Positions 505-13,803 of a stretch of DNA of 36,755 nt are shown here, piece by piece. The stretch covers positions 1 through 36,755 of the forward strand of contig JAUYBG010000018.1 in NCBI GenBank assembly GCA_030693205.1, in the 5' to 3' direction. Origin of the DNA: a bacterium. GTDB taxonomy: Bacteria > Patescibacteriota > Minisyncoccia > JAHIHE01. Positions within the stretch are counted from its first letter, which is position 1, and each line of letters begins with the position of its first letter. A program made the translations under genes and the position numbers. Below the pieces are notes generated by a model, which was not told the origin of the DNA, made no database searches, and saw only the letters and a list, made by a program, of their open reading frames with translations.

Positions 505-1251
505 ATGCGCTTTGATATTATCACAATTTTCCCGAAAATTTTCGATTCATATTTCAGTGAGAGTATTTTGGCGCGGGCGCAAGCAAAAAATCTGATCGAT
601 ATCAATGTTCACGATTTGCGAAATTGGGCCAGTGGCGCGCACAGGCAAGTTGACGATAGGCCGTTCGGCGGCGGGCCGGGAATGGTGCTGAAAGTAGAAC
701 CGATTTTTAAAGCGGTGCAGGAAATAAAGAAATCAAAAATTACCCTTCGACAGGCTCAGGGTGACAAGAAAAAAGCGAGCAGAAAAATAAAAAAAACGCG
801 AGTAATTTTATTATCTGCCAAAGGAAAAAGATTTATTCAAAGCGACGTGAAAAGACTATTGAAATATGATCAATTAATACTCATTTGCGGCCGGTATGAG
901 GGCGTTGATGAGCGGGTAGCAAAGTATATCGCGGACGAAGAGCTTTCAATCGGGGATTTTGTCTTGACAGGCGGAGAGCTACCTGCTATGATTGTAATCG
1001 ACAGTATTTCCCGGCACATTCCGCACGTAATTGGCAAGCAAGAATCCTTGACAGAGGAAAGCTTTACATTGTATAATAAAGATGCTAAGATTAAGTATAT
1101 TGAATATCCGCATTATACGAGGCCGGAAATATTCGAGCCAATGAAGAAAAAGAAGTGGGCAACTCCAAAAGTATTATTAAGTGGTAATCACAAAAAAATA
1201 CATGAGTGGAGAATTAAAAACGCAAAATTAGAAGACATTGCAAGGCAGTGA
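505..1251 (+). CDS. trmD: tRNA (guanine-N1)-methyltransferase TrmD
   Basis: TrmD methylates G37 of tRNAs that read CNN codons, using S-adenosylmethionine, and so prevents +1 frameshifting. This 248-residue protein has the family landmarks in order: N-terminal MRFDIITIFPKIF, the knot region VDDRPFGGGPGMVLK, the SAM-binding trefoil-knot segment LICGRYEGVDERV, and IGDFVLTGGELPAM. Between EPIFKAV and the VILLSAKGKRF strand there is an extra basic stretch of about 25 residues. It contains TLRQAQGD, which is encoded exactly by a 24-nt palindromic element (743-766). The insertion lies in a loop ahead of the SAM site, so activity is probably kept. There is no recognisable Shine-Dalgarno before the ATG. 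The stop is TGA, which argues against a recoded TGA. Confidence 0.95.
   Translation: MRFDIITIFPKIFDSYFSESILARAQAKNLIDINVHDLRNWASGAHRQVDDRPFGGGPGMVLKVEPIFKAVQEIKKSKITLRQAQGDKKKASRKIKKTRVILLSAKGKRFIQSDVKRLLKYDQLILICGRYEGVDERVAKYIADEELSIGDFVLTGGELPAMIVIDSISRHIPHVIGKQESLTEESFTLYNKDAKIKYIEYPHYTRPEIFEPMKKKKWATPKVLLSGNHKKIHEWRIKNAKLEDIARQ
743..766 (+). repeat. 24-nt coding palindromic unit inside trmD
   Basis: The 24 nt begin CCCTTCGACAGG and end GGGTGACA. They are the exact reverse complement of the intergenic unit at 12574-12597. Being 8 codons long, the element leaves the frame open and encodes a peptide with LRQAQG. Units starting in the same codon phase occur in hypF (7227) and acs (23679). 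Confidence 0.85.
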
Positions 1252-6885: not shown

Positions 6886-6912
6886 GGCTGTAATATAATT
6901 ATCGTTAACCAT

Positions 6913-6941
6913 ATTATACAATTTTAATGGAATTATGACAA
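6913..6941 (-). promoter_or_regulatory. promoter of hyhS-hyhL-hypA
   Basis: On the minus strand TTGTCA (6936-6941), 17 nt, TATAAT (6913-6918). The likely start point leaves a leader of about 20 nt before the ATG at 6885. Its -35 box overlaps the -35 of the divergent hypF promoter. Confidence 0.7.
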
Positions 6942-6961
6942 ATTAAACATTATGTTATAAT
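6935..6961 (+). promoter_or_regulatory. promoter of hypF, probably leaderless
   Basis: ATGACA (6935-6940), 15 nt, extended -10 TGTTATAAT (hexamer 6956-6961). The hypF ATG begins at 6968, 7 nt after the -10, which is where transcription would start, so the mRNA probably has no leader. Confidence 0.6.
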
Positions 6962-6967
6962 ATAATT

Positions 6968-8455
6968 ATGGAATTATTTACGCGATTGTTTATAAAGAAA
7001 GAAACGATTTTGGCTCTTGGCGCGGAATCGGTTGGTATTTTTGCCGTTTATCGAAATGGCGATATTTTTGTTTCGGAAAACTTCGGCGATTTATTGGACG
7101 AAAAGAACTTTTTGAAATATAAAAAAGCGGTTTTATTTTATTTAAAAAAAGAAAGGTTTAAGCCGGATGTAATTTTGACCGATTTACATCCTTTGTTTAA
7201 AACAACAATTTTTGGAGAAGATTTGGCCCTTCGACTAGGCTCAGGGCAGGCTCAAAAAAGATATTTACTTTTAAGTAAAAAAAATACTAAATTAATAAAA
7301 GTTCAGCATCATTTTGCGCATATTTTTTCCGCGGTAGGGGACTATTTTTGTCATCCTGAATTTATTTCAGGATCTGAAAATTATAGATTCCGAAACAAGT
7401 TCGGAATGACAGAAAGTTATAAAATACCTAATACTTTTTTCGGTATTGCAATGGATGGCACGGGCTATGGTTTGGACGGAAATATTTGGGGAGGAGAAGT
7501 GTTCGAAATTACAAATTACAAATTACAAATTACAAAACAATTTCAAAATCAAAATTTTAAAACAAATACCGGAAAATTAAATTTAAATATTGAGCGAATT
7601 GGAAGTTTGGAAGAGCAGACAATGATTGGCGGGGATTTGGCGGTAAAAGAGCCGGCAAGAATGTTAATCGCGATACTCGCGAAAATTACAAATTACAAAT
7701 TACAAATTACAAACAAATCACAAATAACAAATTTAAAAAAACAAAAAGATTTTATCTATAAATACGTTAAAAACTTTTATACACGAAACGAATTTGAGGC
7801 GCTGTATAGCCAATCAAAACAGGATTTTAATTGCCAAAAAACTACCAGTACCGGTCGAATTTTGGATGCAGTTGCAGTTTTACTTGGATTTGCGGGAAAT
7901 GAAAGAAAGTTTAAGCACGAAGCGGTAAAGAAGCTGGAAGAAAATTCCAGTATTCCTTATTTTTTAAAACCAATAATTACTTTTTCTGTCATTGCGAGCT
8001 CGTTGCCAGCAGGCGATGAGCGCGGCAATCTCTCAGCTTGTTTGAGAAATAAATCTCGCCCGCCTAGACTCGGCGAGGCTGGCATACGCGAGGGATTGCT
8101 TCGTCGTTCCGATGATTACATCGGAACTCCTCGCAATGACAAGAGGTGGATTTTACAAACCACTCCGCTATTTAAATATTTAATTAAAAACATCCATAAA
8201 GATAAAAAAAGATTGGCCGCTACCGCGCAATTATATGTTGCAAGGGGGCTTTATGAAATAATCAAAAAAAATCATAAATCATTAATCATTAATCATAAAT
8301 CGGGCTTCTTTGCCGCCGGAGGGATGGCGAATAACAAAATTATTTCTTCATATTTGGAAAAACAAGGAGTTTACATACCAAAAAAAATCCCCAGAGGAGA
8401 CGAGGGGATCGCAATAGGACAGATTATTTATTATTTAACAAATTCTCGGCACTAA
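6968..8455 (+). CDS. hypF: HypF C-terminal (Kae1-like) carbamoyltransferase domain, with multiple insertions
   Basis: HypF makes the thiocarbamoyl group on HypE that becomes the cyanide ligands. Full-length HypF (about 750 residues) has acylphosphatase, zinc-finger, YrdC-like and Kae1-like domains. This 495-residue protein begins directly at the Kae1-like part (ETILALGAE) and lacks the other three. Visible motifs are VQHHFAH (metal-binding HxxxH), AMDGTGYGLDGNIWGGE, STGRILDAVAVLLGFAGNE and FFAAGGMANNK. Six repeat-derived stretches interrupt it, at about residues 87-96, 128-148, 181-200, 239-255, 340-392 and 435-445. About 130 residues in total are inserted, leaving a core of about 365, which fits the domain. 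It runs opposite to the rest of the island and its 3' end overlaps hypE by 21 bp. The missing domains could be encoded elsewhere. Confidence 0.85.
   Translation: MELFTRLFIKKETILALGAESVGIFAVYRNGDIFVSENFGDLLDEKNFLKYKKAVLFYLKKERFKPDVILTDLHPLFKTTIFGEDLALRLGSGQAQKRYLLLSKKNTKLIKVQHHFAHIFSAVGDYFCHPEFISGSENYRFRNKFGMTESYKIPNTFFGIAMDGTGYGLDGNIWGGEVFEITNYKLQITKQFQNQNFKTNTGKLNLNIERIGSLEEQTMIGGDLAVKEPARMLIAILAKITNYKLQITNKSQITNLKKQKDFIYKYVKNFYTRNEFEALYSQSKQDFNCQKTTSTGRILDAVAVLLGFAGNERKFKHEAVKKLEENSSIPYFLKPIITFSVIASSLPAGDERGNLSACLRNKSRPPRLGEAGIREGLLRRSDDYIGTPRNDKRWILQTTPLFKYLIKNIHKDKKRLAATAQLYVARGLYEIIKKNHKSLIINHKSGFFAAGGMANNKIISSYLEKQGVYIPKKIPRGDEGIAIGQIIYYLTNSRH
7227..7254 (+). repeat. palindromic element inside hypF (CTTCGAC family)
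   Basis: CCCTTCGACTAGGCTCAGGG and the following CAGGCTCA are a variant of the trmD unit. It encodes ALRLGSGQAQ in the same codon phase as the trmD and acs copies. Confidence 0.75.
7349..7411 (+). repeat. 63-nt palindromic element inside hypF
   Basis: It is the inverted copy of 3534-3596, identical at 59 of 63 positions. It is exactly 21 codons from TGT to ACA and encodes residues 128-148 (CHPEFISGS...FGMT) without a stop. It lies between the HHFAH motif and the DGTGYG motif. Confidence 0.92.
7505..7538 (+). repeat. A+T-rich tandem repeat inside hypF, first copy
   Basis: Four tandem copies of an ACAAATT unit encode TNYKLQIT. The same peptide is made again from 7687. Such repeats can vary in copy number by slippage. 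Confidence 0.75.
7681..7733 (+). repeat. A+T-rich tandem repeat inside hypF, second copy
   Basis: It repeats the ACAAATT unit of 7505-7538 and degenerates into ACAAATCACAAATAACAAAT. It encodes ITNYKLQITNKSQITN in the same frame as the first copy. Confidence 0.75.
7987..8141 (+). repeat. 155-nt composite palindromic element inside hypF
   Basis: The ends are TGTCATTGCGAG and CTCGCAATGACA. Inside are GCGGCAATCTC, a CGCCCGCCTAGACTCGGCGAGGC palindrome (given in part by its arms) and GGGATTGCTTCGTCG. It encodes about residues 340-392, including EGLLRRSDDYIGTPRNDK. The same family lies in hypE at 9286-9384. Confidence 0.88.
8270..8301 (+). repeat. palindromic ATCATAAATC repeat inside hypF
   Basis: AATCATAAATC, ATTAATCATTAATC and ATAAATC form a tandem, near-palindromic stretch that encodes NHKSLIINHKS just before the FFAAGGMANN motif. 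Confidence 0.6.
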
Positions 8456-9544
8456 TTTTCCTCTTGGCATTTCAATTGGTCGCAATCCGCCGGATTCGGT
8501 ATTTAGAAAAACACCTTTGCCGTGCTTGATACTGCCGATGATCTTGGCGGTTTTATTATATTTTTCAAGAATTTTAATGGTTTTATCGGCGAATTTAGCC
8601 GGCACAGTGGCAATAAATCTTCCTTCGGATGGCAAAGCCATAATATCAATTCCTAAAAGATTGCCAATAGACATCACCTCTTTTTTATAAGGAAGATTTT
8701 TTTCATCAAGAACAATTTTAATTTTTGACTTTTCCGCGATTTCATTGAGATTTTCCGCTAAGCCGCCGCGGGTCGGATCTTTGGCAGATGTAAGATATTT
8801 TCTCACCGCTTGCATTTCCGCCAATATTGGTTGGCTGTCGCTTTTAAGCCGGGTTTTGTAATTAAAACGATGCGCCAAAATCACTGCGCCGTGTTCGCCC
8901 AAGTCACCGGAAGCAATGACTTTATCGCCTGGCCTTGCGCCGTTATTAGAAATAATTTTCTCTGCAAGTCCAATGCCGGTTGTGGTAAAGGCGATTTTAT
9001 CGATTTTTCCTTTATTGGTTACTTTGGTGTCGCCGGTGACAATTGGGGTATTAGTTTGACGAGAAATTTTGTTTATTGAACAAATTATTTTTTCCAGGTC
9101 AGAAGTGGGGAATCCTTCTTCAATGATAAAACTTAACGCAATCCCAAGCGGAGTTGCGCCCATTACCGATAAATCATTGATCGTGCCGCACATCGCGATC
9201 TTGCCAATATCGCCGCCCGGGAAAAATATCGGGTCAATGATAAAAGCATCGGTTGTCATGACGAGCTTCAAGGATGATTCTATTTTGTCATTGCGAGGAG
9301 TAGCGCGACGAAGCAATCCCTCAACTTGTTTGAGATTTAAATCTTGCATTCGCAAGAGATTGCTTCGCTTCGCTCGCAATGACAGCAAGGGAGCTAAATC
9401 AAATACTGCGCCATCATCTCCGGTATTGGTCCATTTGCCGGTAAAATTAAGGATTTTTCTTAGGTTTTTGAAGAATTCCCACGAAGCGGCTCCGCCCGCG
9501 CCGATATCAAGGGAAATGGATGAATTTTTGAAGATACTTGACAT
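8435..9544 (-). CDS. hypE: hydrogenase maturation protein HypE
   Basis: HypE dehydrates a thiocarbamoyl group on its C-terminal cysteine to thiocyanate, using ATP, and passes cyanide to the HypC-HypD complex. The 369-residue protein has the PurM/AIR-synthetase-like layout: GDDGAVFDL (45-50), LVMTTDAFIIDPIFFPGGDIGKIAMCGTINDL given here by its parts, TGDTKV and DPTRGGLAENLNEIA. It ends LVPRIC, so the essential terminal Cys is present. Residues of about 54-87 (LSLRAKRSNLLRMQ...PRNDK) come from a 99-nt palindromic element (9286-9384). They sit in the hairpin between two strands, where an insertion may be tolerated. The 3' end overlaps hypF (convergent). Confidence 0.95.
   Translation of the reverse strand: MSSIFKNSSISLDIGAGGAASWEFFKNLRKILNFTGKWTNTGDDGAVFDLAPLLSLRAKRSNLLRMQDLNLKQVEGLLRRATPRNDKIESSLKLVMTTDAFIIDPIFFPGGDIGKIAMCGTINDLSVMGATPLGIALSFIIEEGFPTSDLEKIICSINKISRQTNTPIVTGDTKVTNKGKIDKIAFTTTGIGLAEKIISNNGARPGDKVIASGDLGEHGAVILAHRFNYKTRLKSDSQPILAEMQAVRKYLTSAKDPTRGGLAENLNEIAEKSKIKIVLDEKNLPYKKEVMSIGNLLGIDIMALPSEGRFIATVPAKFADKTIKILEKYNKTAKIIGSIKHGKGVFLNTESGGLRPIEMPRGKLVPRIC
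9286..9384 (-). repeat. 99-nt palindromic element inside hypE
   Basis: It is bounded by TGTCATTGCGAG and CTCGCAATGACA and is 33 codons long. It belongs to the family of the 155-nt hypF element. Its left end (in hypE coding sense) is read in another frame than in hypF (LSLRAK against SVIASS), and its right end in the same frame (EGLLRR, PRNDK). Confidence 0.9.
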
Positions 9545-9590
9545 ATTGTTGATTTTGTGCTAAGATTAAATATTAAGTTGGTTTTTGTTT

Positions 9591-9682
9591 TGTCATTCCG
9601 AGCAAAGCGAGGAATCCTTTGAGCTCACTTCATAGTGCGTACAAGAGATTTCTCTCCATCTGCTGATGGATTCGAAATGACA
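9591..9682. repeat. intergenic palindromic element upstream of hypE
   Basis: TGTCATTCCGAGCAAAGCGAGGAATCC at the left and GGATTCGAAATGACA at the right (ends given) form imperfect inverted repeats around ACAAGAGATTTCTC. It shares its ends with the 63-nt element. The rest of 9545-9809 holds no gene and no clear promoter. Confidence 0.75.
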
Positions 9683-9809
9683 GAAATTAATTTGTTCTTT
9701 TAAAACTTTTACGGCTTTGGAAAAAATTGCAGCAGGATATTAAAAAATCTTGGTGCGATTAAAAAAAGCTGTGAATAAAAGAAAAAATAAAATATAAGGA
9801 GGAAGGAAT

Positions 9810-10208
9810 ATGAGTTTAATAGGCGTAATTGCGCCATATATAGCAGTAATAATCTTTGCAGTATTGCTACAATATGCTGCAAAAAGAAACCAAAGAATAG
9901 AAAAAATTGTTGAAAAAGCAGATATGCTATTAAACAAGACAATATTCGGTCTATCAATTTTCGTTGTCAATATGACACTATGGTTAGGAGTTGTAATGGT
10001 AGCCGAATTTGTTTTTTCTGGAATTGCGTTTTATGTAAATCCCGAATTTGTCCAGAGTTTACTGCATAAGGATGGTGTGATTATTGGCGAGCTTATGTTT
10101 ATAGGTACGCTGATCGTCTCAGGCATATTAACAATAGTGAAGCCGCTAGCATCCGCATCTAAAATCTCTGAAGCTAAAATACAAAATATTTGCCCTGCCC
10201 GCGAATAA
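9810..10208 (+). CDS. small membrane protein of unknown function
   Basis: This 132-residue protein has three hydrophobic segments, at about residues 5-23, 46-75 and 89-112. A charged stretch (KRNQRIEKIVEKADM) lies after the first. The C-terminal 20 residues are polar. I recognise no family. A full Shine-Dalgarno (AAGGAGG, 9796-9802) sits 7 nt before the ATG, unlike the hydrogenase genes around it, which mostly have none. It lies on the plus strand between hypD and hypE, both on the minus strand, and none of the coding palindromes occurs in it. This suggests it was inserted into the island separately. A role in hydrogenase function cannot be claimed. Confidence 0.75.
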   Translation: MSLIGVIAPYIAVIIFAVLLQYAAKRNQRIEKIVEKADMLLNKTIFGLSIFVVNMTLWLGVVMVAEFVFSGIAFYVNPEFVQSLLHKDGVIIGELMFIGTLIVSGILTIVKPLASASKISEAKIQNICPARE

Positions 10209-10226
10209 AATCGTGTGGCCTTTTTT

Positions 10227-10886
10227 TTATATTTGAAACTTCGCCTCTATCCCGCAAGCGCCTTCGGAAGAAACCATACACGCACCAATTGGATTATCCG
10301 GGGTGCATTTTTTATTGAACAACTTGCAATCGCGAGGTTCTTTTAAACCGCGAAGAATCGCGCCGCAGATACAATTGGTACTACCAGACCCCTCGACCCG
10401 CTTCGACTCAGCGAGGCGAGCAAGCTCAGGGTGACAGTTTTTTAGAATATTTTTATATTTTATTTTTGCGTCGAATTGCGAATATTTTGAGCGGATCTCA
10501 AATCCGGAATTGGGAATTTTTCCGATTCCTCGCCAATATGCATCGCCGAGCGCAAAAACTTCACTGATCAATTTCATGGCCTTGGGATTTCCTTCAGGCC
10601 GCACTACGCGAACATATTGATTTTCCACCTCTGCTCGATTTTCCGCGATTTGTTTTAAGAGCATATAAATTGTTATTAGAACATCATTTGCTTCAAATCC
10701 AGCGATTACTTGCGGAAGCTTGAATTGCGCATAAGGTTTTGAGCCGATAATCGCGGAAACATGGCCAGGATTAATAAACCCGTCTATTTTAAGTTGCGGA
10801 GTATCAAGAAGCGCTTTCATTGCCGGCACAAAAGCTTTGTGCGAGGAATAGACCGTAAGTCCGTGTTTGATTGCGCTTGCGGTCAT
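10227..10886 (-). CDS. hypD: HypD, C-terminal part (after frameshift)
   Basis: HypD, with HypC, builds the Fe(CN)2CO unit on a [4Fe-4S] scaffold. This 219-residue part continues the family sequence after the frameshift: MTASAIKHGL, IDGFINPGHVSAIIGSKPY, PQVIAGFEANDVL and the cysteine region CICGAILRG, KEPRDCKLF, CTPDNPIGACMVSSEGACG. The ATG at 10886 overlaps the stop of the first part (ATGA), but the sequence just upstream in this frame (PNIVFFGLGFETTTP) is also HypD-like. The two parts are therefore one gene broken at 10932-10941. Residues CHPELARLAESKRVEGS come from a 49-nt palindromic element (10388-10436) inserted shortly before the cysteine region. Confidence 0.88.
   Translation of the reverse strand: MTASAIKHGLTVYSSHKAFVPAMKALLDTPQLKIDGFINPGHVSAIIGSKPYAQFKLPQVIAGFEANDVLITIYMLLKQIAENRAEVENQYVRVVRPEGNPKAMKLISEVFALGDAYWRGIGKIPNSGFEIRSKYSQFDAKIKYKNILKNCHPELARLAESKRVEGSGSTNCICGAILRGLKEPRDCKLFNKKCTPDNPIGACMVSSEGACGIEAKFQI
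10388..10436 (-). repeat. double palindromic unit in the hypD C-terminal part
   Basis: A 24-nt CTTCGAC-type unit is split by a second 24-nt unit (CCCGCTTCGACTCAGCGAGG + CGAG). The second unit is identical to the one in the other half of hypD (within 11055-11102). The frame used here gives LARLAESKRVEG. Confidence 0.88.
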
Positions 10887-11377
10887 TGGAGTAGTTGTTT
10901 CAAATCCAAGCCCGAAAAAAACAATATTGGGTTTTTTTTTTGAAGTTTTAAGGCATCTTCTACCGAGTAAACTTCTGTAATATCCGCGCCCTGCTCTCTT
11001 GCTGTATCTAAGCTTATGACTTTAATGTCATGGTGAGCTTGTCGAACCATACTGCCCTTCGACCCGCTTCGACTCAGCGAGGCGAGCAGGCTCAGGGCGA
11101 CAATCGTTCCTGGTACTCTCAGTACATCGCCATAACAAGCAATAGGAATTCCTTCCAGTGCCAAAGCAATGACCGCGTTAATATCACGTTGGTCAGTGAC
11201 ACAAACCGGGCAGCCTGGTCCGGAAAGAAGTTTGATATTTTTCGGCAGTAGTTTCTTGATTCCGTGCCGCGCCACTGCTTCGGTGTGAGTGCCGCAGAGT
11301 TCCATTAGAACTATCGGGCGATCTATCTTTTTAGCAAATAGATTTATTTCGTTCAGGATATTTTTCATAAAAATCAC
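10883..11377 (-). CDS. hypD: HypD, N-terminal part (before frameshift)
   Basis: It holds the HypD motifs LMELCGTHTEAVARHGIKK and LLSGPGCPVCVT (catalytic cysteines) and ACYGDVLRVPGT. It loses homology after ALKLQKK, where a run of ten As (T10 at 10932-10941 on the plus strand) precedes a +1 or -2 shift. Eight or eleven As would join it in frame to the second part. Start choice: GTG at 11377 overlaps the hypC stop (GTGA), and ATG at 11368 gives MKNILNEI. Residues of VALSLLASLSRSGSKGS and MVRQAHHD type come from palindromic units at 11026-11102. Every conserved HypD motif is intact on both sides of the break, so the gene may still be expressed through slippage, or the break may be a sequencing error. 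Confidence 0.85.
   Translation of the reverse strand: MIFMKNILNEINLFAKKIDRPIVLMELCGTHTEAVARHGIKKLLPKNIKLLSGPGCPVCVTDQRDINAVIALALEGIPIACYGDVLRVPGTIVALSLLASLSRSGSKGSMVRQAHHDIKVISLDTAREQGADITEVYSVEDALKLQKKNPILFFSGLDLKQLLQ
11026..11102 (-). repeat. triple palindromic unit in the hypD N-terminal part
   Basis: Bases 11026-11049 are a 24-nt unit identical (inverted) to 12538-12561. Bases 11055-11102 are a 48-nt stretch, the CTTCGAC unit split by the same 24-nt inner unit as at 10388-10436. It is read in a different frame (LLASLSRSGSKG) from the copy in the second half of the gene. Confidence 0.9.
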
Positions 11378-11589
11378 ACATTTATTTTTTTAAACAATTT
11401 CAGAGTTTCTTCCGCCTCATTTTTATCGAGTTTCTCGATCGCAAATCCCGCGTGCACTATCACGTAATCTCCTTTTGCAACGTCAACGATCTCTGTATTA
11501 ATATTTTTTTCTATGCCATTAAAACTCACTGTCGCATGGTGAGTTTTAATGTCGATCGATTTGATTTTTCCGGGAATAGCTAAGCACAC
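11374..11589 (-). CDS. hypC: hydrogenase maturation chaperone HypC
   Basis: A 71-residue protein starting MCLAIPGKIKSID. Cys2, exposed after Met removal, binds the iron being assembled on HypD and then the large subunit. The small beta-barrel pattern (ATVSFNGIEKNINTEIVDVAKGDYVIVHAGFAIEKLDKNEAEE, quoted here in two overlapping parts as ATVSFNGIEKNI and GDYVIVHAGFAIEKL) is typical, and the length is normal. It directly precedes hypD with a 3-nt start/stop overlap (GTGA), which suggests translational coupling with its partner. Confidence 0.96.
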   Translation of the reverse strand: MCLAIPGKIKSIDIKTHHATVSFNGIEKNINTEIVDVAKGDYVIVHAGFAIEKLDKNEAEETLKLFKKINV

Positions 11590-11595
11590 GGCTAG

Positions 11596-11685
11596 TAAAA
11601 AGTTATAAAGTAAAAAGTTATAAAGTAGACAGACGAAATATTTTAACTTTATAAACTTGATGAACTTTATAACTTTATAAACTTT
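11596..11685. repeat. A+T-rich inverted repeat between hyhG and hypC
   Basis: Two tandem AAAAAGTTATAAAGT units at the left face ACTTTATAAC and ACTTTATAAACTTTTT units at the right, around AGACAGACGAAATA. A similar TTATAAAG motif occurs at 13850-13880. It fills the whole intergenic gap. Confidence 0.6.
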
Positions 11686-12531
11686 TTATATCGCTCCTGG
11701 CGAATCTTTAAGCCCGGCGTAATTGAATACCGGACCGTCTCGGCAGACGTATTTACCGTTAACTAAAACACAATGCTGGCAAACGCCGACTCCGCAATTC
11801 ATTCGCCGTTCAAGCAAAACGTAAATATCGCTTTCCGCCACTTTTTTATTTTTTAATTTTTGAATTACGGGAAAAAACATTACCGGCGGGCCGCACATTA
11901 TTACTATCGGGTCTTTTGCCAGAGGCGTTTTGTCAAAAAGCGTCGTAACCAGTCCGGTACTGCCGGTCCAATTTTCGTGAGCTATATCTAATGTAAGATT
12001 CAATTCAATGGTTTTTTCCCAGTTTCTATATTCATTTTTAAACAGTAACATTTTTTCTTCGCGGCATCCGCTAAACAGCTGGATTTCGCCGAATTCGCCG
12101 GGGTGATTGCAAAGCATTTGAATGAGCGGTCTTAGAGGGACTAACCCCAATCCGCCAGCGACAAGCGCGATGTTCCTTTTGTTCATTTTCGAAAGAGGGA
12201 ATCCATTGCCGTATGGGCCGCGAAAATAAACCTCATCGCCAACCGACATTGAAAAAAGTTTGCTTGTCAATTCGCCTTTTTTTTGCACGCAAATCTGAAA
12301 TTCGCTGCAGAGAGTGGGGGACGAACAGACGGCAAATGGCGCTTCGCCAAAGCCGGGAATAGAAAGAGCGATAAATTGTCCGGGCCACCAGCATTTAACT
12401 ATTTTTTTTTCATCCGTTTCGCATTTAATATCTTTCCTATCATCCGGCTTAAGCGTAAAAAGCTTAACCATGGCGCTTTGGCTTTCAATATTAGTGATCA
12501 CGAGCGGATAAGTTTTATATTGATTTCTCAT
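11686..12531 (-). CDS. hyhG: hydrogenase gamma subunit, FAD/NAD(P)-binding (HyhG)
   Basis: This diaphorase subunit moves electrons between NAD(P)H and the Fe-S chain of the hydrogenase. The 281-residue protein has a flavin-binding barrel (WPGQFIALSIPGFGEAPFAV, with APFAVCSSP in place of the usual RPxS), an NAD(P)-binding segment (IALVAGGLGLVPLRPLI, about 110-130) with the GGxGxxP signature, VIMCGPPVMF, and a C-terminal [2Fe-2S] motif (CGVGVCQHC, YVCRDGPVF). This matches the dihydroorotate-dehydrogenase-electron-transfer-like gamma subunit of group 3b enzymes. It follows hyhB after 73 nt, a gap filled by two palindromic units. Confidence 0.93.
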   Translation of the reverse strand: MRNQYKTYPLVITNIESQSAMVKLFTLKPDDRKDIKCETDEKKIVKCWWPGQFIALSIPGFGEAPFAVCSSPTLCSEFQICVQKKGELTSKLFSMSVGDEVYFRGPYGNGFPLSKMNKRNIALVAGGLGLVPLRPLIQMLCNHPGEFGEIQLFSGCREEKMLLFKNEYRNWEKTIELNLTLDIAHENWTGSTGLVTTLFDKTPLAKDPIVIMCGPPVMFFPVIQKLKNKKVAESDIYVLLERRMNCGVGVCQHCVLVNGKYVCRDGPVFNYAGLKDSPGAI

Positions 12532-12537
12532 AAATTA

Positions 12538-12597
12538 TGGTTCGACAAGCTCACCATGACATTATAATAAATGTGTCACCCTGAGCCTGTCGAAGGG
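12538..12597. repeat. pair of 24-nt palindromic units between hyhB and hyhG
   Basis: Bases 12538-12561 are identical (inverted) to 11026-11049 inside hypD. Bases 12574-12597 are identical (inverted) to 743-766 inside trmD. Twelve A/T-rich bases separate them. This intergenic pair is the simple form of what is nested in hypD. Confidence 0.9.
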
Positions 12598-12604
12598 CAA
12601 TTGC

Positions 12605-13714
12605 TTAAACACTAAAATTCCTTAACGACGACTTAATTTTTTTAGAATTTTTGATTTCGGTTTTAGTTTTCTCGCCGTTTCGGCGAGTCCGCTCGCCTCG
12701 CTTCGCGATCGAAGCGAGGCGTTGAGGCGGATTTGCTTTAAAGTTTATAATTTTAAAAATTTCATCTTTAATGTTAATTCCCGCGGGGCAAACATCCGCG
12801 CACCTGCCGCAACCGACGCATCCGGGCAGATTATACTCATTGGGAATTCTGACGAATTTGTGGCTATACCAATTGTATATCCTGTCCTCGATCGTTTTTA
12901 AAAATTTCGCTCCGCCGGCTATTTCTGAGAATTCCGAATTAAAACAGCTATCCCATTGGCGAACGCGTTTGATGGAATTATCAAAAACATTATTTTCGTC
13001 GAAAATTTTAAAACAAAAGCAGGTTGGGCAAACAATCGTGCATTTATCGCATCCCAGGCATCTTTTGCCCAGGTCTTTCCATATTTTACTGCCATACGAT
13101 AGCTTGGTTTTTCCCCTTAGAATTTTATGAAAATCGCTTAAGCCTTCCTCGGGAATAGCTCCGGCGTATTCGATATGCTCAAAATCATCATAGCCGAAAT
13201 CGTTCAGCATTCTTTGTCCGTGTTTGGATCCCGTAAAAATGCGGAAATCTTTTTGGTCGCTCCGGCTTTCAATAAAAATATCAAACTTAAAATGCTCCAA
13301 AATATTTTCTTCATATTTTTCGTAGAAACTATTTTCTTCGGGGACAGGGCTTTGGCCGATAAAAATAGTCTGGGAGATTATGTCCTGATAGTACGGATCT
13401 TTCTCGAAAACTTGGCTCAAAAGCGCGACCGCCCGCAAATCAAAAACCGTAATTCCGAACAAAACCTGCTTAGGGATCATTTTTTGATCATTGTTATTTT
13501 TATCCTGGCCGCCTAGCGTGGAAAAAATAGTTTTTCTGTTAGGAAGGAGGAAATTCTTAAATGAATAAAGCGGGCGTTCTTTTACCAGGGAAAATTTTCT
13601 TGAATCGGTTATCTGGCGAACGACAATCCTGCCGCTTTCTTTGACGGGAGAGTAAACCGTATAGTTTTTTTTCAGCAAATATTCGACAAAAAGTTTTAGA
13701 TCGGAGTTATTCAT
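12605..13714 (-). CDS. hyhB: hydrogenase beta subunit, Fe-S (HyhB)
   Basis: This 369-residue subunit carries two [4Fe-4S] clusters: CLGCDKCTIVCP (C219, C222, C225, C229), followed by an extra CFC, and CVGCGRCADVCPAGI (C299, C302, C305, C309). The N-terminal 200 residues match the sulfhydrogenase/anaerobic sulfite reductase A-type domain (FGITVFDLRAVALL, DPYYQ). Homology should end near KIINFK (about 326). The remaining 43 residues start with a peptide from a palindromic element (NPPQRLASIAKRGERTRRNG) and continue basic, so the element has probably replaced or extended the native C-terminus. It is the first gene of the hyhB-hyhG-hypC-hypD unit, with its own promoter. Confidence 0.92.
   Translation of the reverse strand: MNNSDLKLFVEYLLKKNYTVYSPVKESGRIVVRQITDSRKFSLVKERPLYSFKNFLLPNRKTIFSTLGGQDKNNNDQKMIPKQVLFGITVFDLRAVALLSQVFEKDPYYQDIISQTIFIGQSPVPEENSFYEKYEENILEHFKFDIFIESRSDQKDFRIFTGSKHGQRMLNDFGYDDFEHIEYAGAIPEEGLSDFHKILRGKTKLSYGSKIWKDLGKRCLGCDKCTIVCPTCFCFKIFDENNVFDNSIKRVRQWDSCFNSEFSEIAGGAKFLKTIEDRIYNWYSHKFVRIPNEYNLPGCVGCGRCADVCPAGINIKDEIFKIINFKANPPQRLASIAKRGERTRRNGEKTKTEIKNSKKIKSSLRNFSV
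12671..12732 (-). repeat. palindromic element at the hyhB C-terminus
   Basis: Two palindromes (CTCGCCGTTTCGGCGAG at 12671-12687 and CGCCTCGCTTCG...CGAAGCGAGGCG further on) encode residues of about 328-349. It lies past the last Fe-S cluster, so it changes only the tail. Confidence 0.8.
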
Positions 13715-13775
13715 GAGGCTTTATCTTAGTGCCACGGAGGCGCTAAAAGATTAGAATATTTAAATGATATAAATT

Positions 13776-13803
13776 ATTATATCATAAAATGTGGATAAGA
13801 CAA
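13776..13803 (-). promoter_or_regulatory. promoter of the hyhB operon
   Basis: On the minus strand TTGTCT (13798-13803), 16 nt, extended -10 TGATATAAT (hexamer 13776-13781). The leader to the hyhB ATG is about 55 nt and has no Shine-Dalgarno. Confidence 0.6.

Follow-up and report, generated by a model that had tools for sequence, protein, structure and literature searches.

Composite repeats in hypD

The window, by which we mean the whole stretch of 36,755 nucleotides analysed here, is contig C18 of a 1.0-Mb genome in 23 contigs, with a completeness score of 100%. Because genomes with Tagabacteria, Portnoybacteria and Moranbacteria loci belong to its class, we take this small genome to be patescibacterial, and probably of Paceibacteria. 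It contains hypD, on the minus strand, whose neighbours are the hypE/hypF side on one flank and a hydrogenase-type NAD-binding subunit on the other. HypD has a relative of solved structure (2z1d). Two composite repeats lie in the gene, each consisting of a REP-like hairpin (the outer unit) with a second short unit (the inner unit) in its loop, and simple outer units occur elsewhere in the window:

10227-11377, minus strand: hypD (PF01924), host of both composites, split by a frameshift at a T run near 10932-10941
10389-10436, minus strand: composite repeat C, outer REP-like unit (TGTCACCCTGAGCTTG / TCGAGGGG) with the inner unit in its loop, C-terminal part of hypD, peptide CHPELARLAESKRVEG
10397-10420, minus strand: inner 24-nt unit CTCGCCTCGCTGAGTCGAAGCGGG of site C
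11055-11102, minus strand: composite repeat A, outer unit (TGTCGCCCTGAGCCTG / TCGAAGGG) with the inner unit in its loop, N-terminal part of hypD, peptide ALSLLASLSRSGSKG
11063-11086, minus strand: inner 24-nt unit of site A, identical to that of site C
11026-11050, plus strand: TGGT-type outer unit TGTCATGGTGAGCTTGTCGAACCAT, inverted partner of composite A (head-to-head heterodimer), coding-strand peptide MVRQAHHD
12537-12561, minus strand: simple TGGT-type outer unit, intergenic
12574-12597, plus strand: simple CCCT-type outer unit, intergenic, forming a tail-to-tail pair with 12537-12561
742-766, minus strand: simple CCCT-type outer unit within an ORF

In both composites the outer hairpin TGTCACCCTGAGCYTG|TCGAAGGG is split in its loop by CTCGCCTCGCTGAGTCGAAGCGGG, and both follow the coding-strand (minus) formula TGTC-R-CCCTGAGCYTG + CTCGCCTCGCTGAGTCGAAGCGGG + TCGARGGG. 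The initial annotation described a 24-nt unit nested in another, identical at 10388-10436 and 11055-11102. The nesting is confirmed, at 10389-10436 and 11055-11102, but the composites agree at 45 of 48 positions; all three differences fall in the outer unit, and only the inner 24 nt are identical. That annotation did not mention the inverted partner of composite A at 11026-11050. It had correctly recognised the intergenic pair (given as 12538-12597) as the simple form: the halves of these units match the outer halves in hypD and keep the same order, as do those of 742-766, and the halves flanking the hypD inner units, when joined, give the simple unit of 742-766 and 12574-12597.

There are exactly two occurrences of the inner 23-mer in the window, against none expected from shuffles. 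In the 1.0-Mb genome as a whole the exact unit is confined to the two hypD sites, and three other places hold variants with a longer loop. A longer-looped relative, GCTCGCCTCGATTCGAGTCGAAGCGGG, lies at L024:1087. In the window, a related palindrome (CGCTCGCCTCGCTTCGCGATCGAAGCGAGGCG, 12688-12732) occupies the end of the ORF 12605-13714 and is possibly a decayed relative of the inner unit.

The two composites are read in different frames, and the peptides they encode, ...PELARLAESKRVEG... and ...ALSLLASLSRSGSKG..., are those given previously. However, the hypD frame in which they were placed is interrupted: the gene reads as two ORFs, 10883-11377 and 10227-11021, with the shift at a run of ten T residues at about 10932-10941. 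This run could reflect either gene decay or a homopolymer, sequencing or assembly error, and the statement that both composites lie in one protein holds only if it is a sequencing or assembly error.

Other short in-frame repeats are present in hypF and hypE (6968-8455 and 8435-9544), namely VIASSLPAGDERGN...TPRNDK, LSLRAKRSNLL...TPRNDK, CHPEFISGS and TNYKLQIT, so that the whole hyp cluster is decorated. The hypE of one relative (G008) also bears further repeats. No known RNA family was found within window positions 6900-13800.

An outer unit resembling CGTC-tagged REPs

The outer unit is a hairpin of 24-25 nt made up of a TGTC tag, a stem and GAG-loop-TCGA. Its core, GAGCYTGTCGA, occurs 19 times in the 1.0-Mb genome (0 for the reversed pattern), and about 21 units are recognisable in all. 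The flanks on either side of the core are complementary and covary between copies (ACCCT/AGGGT, ATGGT/ACCAT, ATAGT/ACTAT, ATCCT/AGGAC and GCCCC/GGGGC), with 73 of 76 inner-4 cells paired, where shuffles gave 43 on average and at most 64. The stem has about five Watson-Crick pairs (4-5), followed by GA/GA and a G-C, and reaches eight only if the GA pairs are counted. Folding energies of the DNA gave little strand preference, and a strand-specific hairpin is suggested from the GA/GA motif only. TGTCA precedes the stem in most simple units of the genome, and several degenerate copies are without the tag. Inverted pairs are small in number, with four head-to-head (C7, C10, C23 and hypD site A) and two tail-to-tail (C16 and the pair at 12537-12597 in C18); all join a CCCT-type with a TGGT/TAGT-type unit, with the tags outside in the head-to-head and inside in the tail-to-tail arrangement. 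Of the 286 class genomes, 125 contain a 15-mer of the outer unit and none its reversed control.

By its tag, its dimer habit and its intragenic habit the outer unit matches the CGTC-tagged REPs, a group which includes RPE-4 and RPE-6 of Rickettsia, as described by Di Nocera et al. (2013; PMC3733652). Those elements are likewise short hairpins, tagged at one end by an unpaired C/TGTC, that form inverted heterodimers, show compensatory stem variants, have intragenic copies and lack a linked transposase gene. Head-to-head dimers predominate among them, with which the outer unit agrees (4 versus 2 pairs, on small numbers). Against stems of 8-9 bp and 4-5-nt loops in that group, the unit here has 4-5 Watson-Crick pairs, GA/GA and a loop, and would come within their stem range only with the GA pairs counted. 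Of our two units, the outer carries the tag (CGTC, or TGTC/CCTC, in that group) and the inner has neither a CGTC/TGTC nor a GTAG tag. The part of the paper drawn on here does not include Patescibacteria among the phyla listed for CGTC repeats and contains no description of one unit nested in the loop of another (PMC3733652). Our literature search found no report on REPs in Patescibacteria.

A second parallel is provided by the Rickettsia palindromic elements (RPEs; Ogata et al., 2000, as reviewed in PMC2229807), which are also palindromic, in frame in conserved proteins and tolerated by the host. These are about 105-146 bp long and belong to Rickettsia, whereas the units here measure 24-48 bp, occur in Patescibacteria, Nitrospira and Planctomycetes, and are nested.

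Ends, target and spread of the inner unit

A scan of 84,980 species genomes with the 20-mer core of the inner unit returned 53 stretches, mostly from Patescibacteria and Nitrospira, and also from Planctomycetes, Bacteroidetes and Syntrophaceae; one match, in Comamonas (L039), appears unrelated. The design is a stem CGCT/AGCG around GAG..TCGA, with (G)CTCGCC as the invariant 5' end. Across the 52 contexts outside hypD the unit begins with C in 52 and continues with T in 51, and ends with GG in all 52. The preceding base is G in 42 and the following base is Y in 51, with almost no information beyond. These sharp ends within unrelated flanks define the unit as CTCGCCTCGCTGAGTCGAAGCGGG, with G|Y as its insertion step.

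Short target duplications at the junctions, which the initial annotation advised checking for, were looked for and none were found. A duplication of 1-2 nt (GY) is ruled out by the flank table of the 52 contexts, since T follows the unit in 19 of them and yet the unit always begins with C, and since its last base is G even where the preceding base is not. The inner unit thus falls outside the definition of MITEs, for which terminal inverted repeats and a target site duplication are needed, as it has no duplication. Insertion of the IS200/IS605 type also produces no target duplication, which is a feature shared with the inner unit; here, however, no transposase is carried, the element is only 24 nt long, and the preferred target is loops and a G|Y step rather than a fixed tetranucleotide.

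Empty sites were sought by removing the unit, joining ten bases from each side and searching for the resulting 20-mer elsewhere with two mismatches allowed. Exact removal restored a repeat known elsewhere in the searched DNA in 14 of 69 cases (13 without the self-match of L082), and removals shifted by 1-4 nt did so in 0-2. The restored sites are other palindromic repeats (for example CATCCTGAACTTG|TTTCAGGATC, GATTCTGGACAAG|CCAGAATGAC, GATTGCCACGTCG|CTTCGCTCCTCGCAATGAC and CCTGCCTG|CCGGCAGG), and the inner unit lies in the loops of GTCATTCCGG..CCGGAAT, CATCCTGAACTTG..TTTCAGGATC, GATTGCC..GCAATGAC and GATTCTGGACAAG..CCAGAATGAC repeats. A flanking palindrome score of at least 7 was reached by 23% of the contexts and by 1% of swapped flanks (about 18-fold). 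Taken together, the restored sites and flanking palindromes indicate that the unit often, though not solely, enters hairpin loops; about a quarter of the contexts are clearly palindromic, and the remainder are simple repeats or ordinary coding DNA.

These data bear on the view that the composite is a REP variant with a long self-complementary loop, in which nothing was inserted. REPs with loop variants whose inner parts are complementary have been described (PMC3733652), and the loops of our outer unit come in many lengths. We nevertheless hold this to be very improbable, as the inner unit occurs with the same ends at about 50 sites without this outer unit and with unrelated sequence around it, and its exact removal restores simple repeats.

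An assembly or library artefact, such as an adapter-like oligonucleotide, is harder still to credit. It would fit an exact 24-mer found across many metagenome-assembled genomes (MAGs), and the homopolymer frameshift in hypD. Against it, two MAGs of different studies share an insertion with flanks 98% identical and two other Nitrospira share one with flanks 86% identical (orthologous loci L050/L077 and L037/L043, with the unit itself unchanged); the unit stands in frame within essential genes, forms with different loops occur, and there was no match in the papers searched or in phage, plasmid or viral contigs. For lack of a match in such contigs, a phage, plasmid or viral origin was also rejected. 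We make no claim of conservation from the Nitrospira copies, because the scan is biased towards exact ones. A literature search with the unit sequence or the peptide PELVEG retrieved no relevant prior description.

Several genomes hold one inner copy each, so that no donor is visible inside them, and some copies are contained in longer duplications (L041/L073, L068/L069 and L131/L140). The family, with variable loops, is present in 17 of 286 class genomes (reversed control, 0). From its ends, spread and empty sites, the inner unit looks mobile.

Much of this spread is within coding DNA. An open frame of at least 110 amino acids runs through the unit in 38 of 52 contexts, some of which may not be genes, and Pfam names the protein in 18 of 20 frames tested. 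The hosts are DnaE, LigA, an RseP-type M50 protein, an NADH:quinone oxidoreductase/antiporter subunit, an RsmI-type methylase, MurT, a dephospho-CoA kinase-type DUF359 protein, an HI0933-like protein, Sua5 joined to TsaE, a GT4 protein, an RluD-type protein, RsmH, PriA, an O-antigen ligase, a histidine kinase, L1, IF-2 and a DUF2298 protein. The peptides PASTQRGE, LASLSRSG, (A)RLAESKR, PLRLSEA and RFDSARR show that all five stop-free frames are in use. In DnaE the receiving loop has 10-11 residues in many relatives (longer in some) and 19 in the bearer of the unit. The proposal that selection acts on the DNA and not on the peptide is supported by the use of an identical 24-mer in five stop-free frames of unrelated proteins, and by the covariation of the outer stems.

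RPEs are also found within RNA genes (PMC2229807). At L082:7319-7410 the inner unit abuts a tRNA-Gly gene at its 3' end, where the CCCGC of the acceptor stem is provided by the unit, for which reason ARAGORN still calls the tRNA; this placement, with the tRNA intact, resembles that of integrating elements at tRNA ends. At L072:6643-7800, TsaE and Sua5 form one open frame through a GATTCTGG..CCAGAAT repeat that contains the inner unit.

Order of insertion and possible mobilisation

At the C-terminal hypD site, one relative (G006) has an outer unit without the inner (TGTCATTCTGAACTTGTCGAAGAATC), two (G005 and G008) have decayed forms of it, two (G016 and G047) have no unit, and the nearest relative (G001) has an AT-rich repeat. 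The composite at the N-terminal site was in none of the relatives examined. The three forms that the initial annotation asked to look for at the locus (no unit, outer alone, and both) are thus all seen, and a single composite common to all relatives, which would have suggested one old event, was not observed. The outer-only units of G006, G005 and G008 differ in their stem (ATTCT/AGAAT) and sit roughly a codon away, so that their shared descent with the outer unit here is not proved. A third hypD loop, before PQVI(A/T)GFE, bears repeats of the HPNPLPEGEG and VIARSHQATKQS...VARNDN types in G012 and G001 (L031 and L032).

The order originally proposed, outer unit first and inner second, agrees with several observations. 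The outer unit stands alone in the 125 class genomes noted above, the inner unit occupies loops in no fewer than four further repeat families, its exact removal restores an uninterrupted repeat, and three relatives have an outer-only unit at the orthologous hypD site. The reading of outer-then-inner insertion with selection at the DNA level is therefore supported, as far as comparison of sequences can support it.

Filling of the outer loop has also recurred. The pattern CCTGAGCYTG..TCGAAGG, searched in the 286 class genomes, found filled loops at 35 places in 25 genomes (reversed control, 3 matches); as the pattern fixed the insertion point, we do not claim that this point is exclusive. Seven loops hold a 24-nt GGT-type unit, e.g. 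CCTGCGGTGAGTTTGTCGAACCCG, of the same GAG..TCGA design and in the same orientation, and those of G170, G177 and G167 hold relatives of the inner unit with other loop lengths. Head-to-tail arrays of 24-nt outer units are found in frame in LigA of G197 (L226, about five copies) and IF-2 of G079 (L247, about four). Hosts of in-frame composites or arrays are ATP synthase alpha (AtpA), ValS-type and IleS-type synthetases, topoisomerase I (TopA), a PolX-type polymerase, LigA and IF-2.

The comparisons between genomes demonstrate precise whole-unit insertion, recurrence, nesting, loop preference, frame-independence and an outer-only state in relatives. Judged on its sequence, the hypD case is a real and well-delimited nested insertion of REP-like units, of which the inner is unusually short and widely shared. 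We consider that both layers are probably short mobile elements like REPs and RPEs, nesting in hairpin loops. The outer unit would have reached two tolerant sites in hypD first, and the inner unit would then have entered its loop, either twice or once with subsequent short-range copying. The inner unit would insert whole at a ...G|Y... step, creating no target duplication, and would often use the loop of a hairpin repeat already in place; its 24-nt length and five stop-free frames would let it pass in coding DNA.

The two composites need not be independent nestings, because the exact combination of outer and inner unit is seen nowhere else: it is confined, among about 21 outer units, to two places in hypD 640 bp apart, and is absent from 52 other inner contexts. 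A single nesting, followed by copying of the composite (or of the inner unit plus a few bases around it) to the other hypD unit through local transposition or short-tract gene conversion, comes close to an even chance, and is compatible with the mobile-element reading for the first nesting. The identity of the inner copies and their restriction to hypD favour copying of the inner unit. The outer halves, on the other hand, differ at 3 of 24 positions, including a C/T loop variant that also varies among other outer units, which favours separate outers, and in other genomes the same loop point has repeatedly been filled by different inserts. Independent nesting, and one nesting with short-range copying, are both possible.

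On the mobile-element reading, the transfer step would be enzymatic and would act on extruded or single-stranded hairpins, as do HUH (Y1) enzymes on REPs (PMC8266576). By this analogy a mobiliser of the HUH (Y1) class is conceivable, although we are inclined to doubt it. The presence of Y1_Tnp was not associated with that of the inner unit (11/17 versus 177/269 genomes, p=1) or of the outer unit (88/125 versus 100/161, p=0.17), 5 of 18 inner-bearing genomes have no Y1_Tnp, and no simple outer units were found in the flanks of 31 Y1_Tnp loci. A RAYT was rejected as the cognate enzyme, there being neither flanking units nor an association in presence.

The lack of a target duplication and of an association with Y1_Tnp would also suit an origin without any enzyme, in which a nearby unit is copied into the loop when replication slips or switches template at a hairpin; the tandem arrays in LigA and IF-2 resemble slippage products. 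We think this unlikely, since identical 24-mers with identical ends are spread over several phyla, and a genome holding just one copy offers no visible template.

A broader proposal can be put forward tentatively: a lineage-spanning family of hairpins of about 24 nt, among the smallest mobile DNAs known, which may prefer the loops of hairpin repeats (those of its own superfamily included), nest within essential genes, and be mobilised by an undescribed activity and not by a linked Y1 transposase.

The literature leaves open how transposase-less REPs of the CGTC type spread (PMC3733652). The inner unit, with its exact ends, cross-phylum identity and filled and empty sites, fixes the ends of the piece that moved, points to hairpin loops as a preferred target, and argues against target duplication. 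It also follows that core proteins of Patescibacteria (DnaE, LigA, IF-2, AtpA, ValS and TopA) contain peptides arising as by-products when DNA inserts, a point of importance for annotation, protein modelling and phylogenies. Insertion of very short mobile DNA into protein genes and into other mobile DNA can be recognised directly in genome sequences.

The GTAG REPs and REPINs that are associated with RAYT (TnpA-REP) resemble the present units in being short hairpins in inverted pairs, for which single-strand-type recognition is proposed (PMC3116915, PMC8266576). They differ in that the units here are without GTAG, flank no RAYT and show no Y1_Tnp association, and in that the genome's own Y1_Tnp is flanked by another palindrome, CCAAGGGGAGTCCTTGG. 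This sole Y1_Tnp gene (L024, G000:C16:411-632) has four perfect copies of that palindrome around it, two of them inside its own ORF, and is probably a REPtron with its own palindrome.
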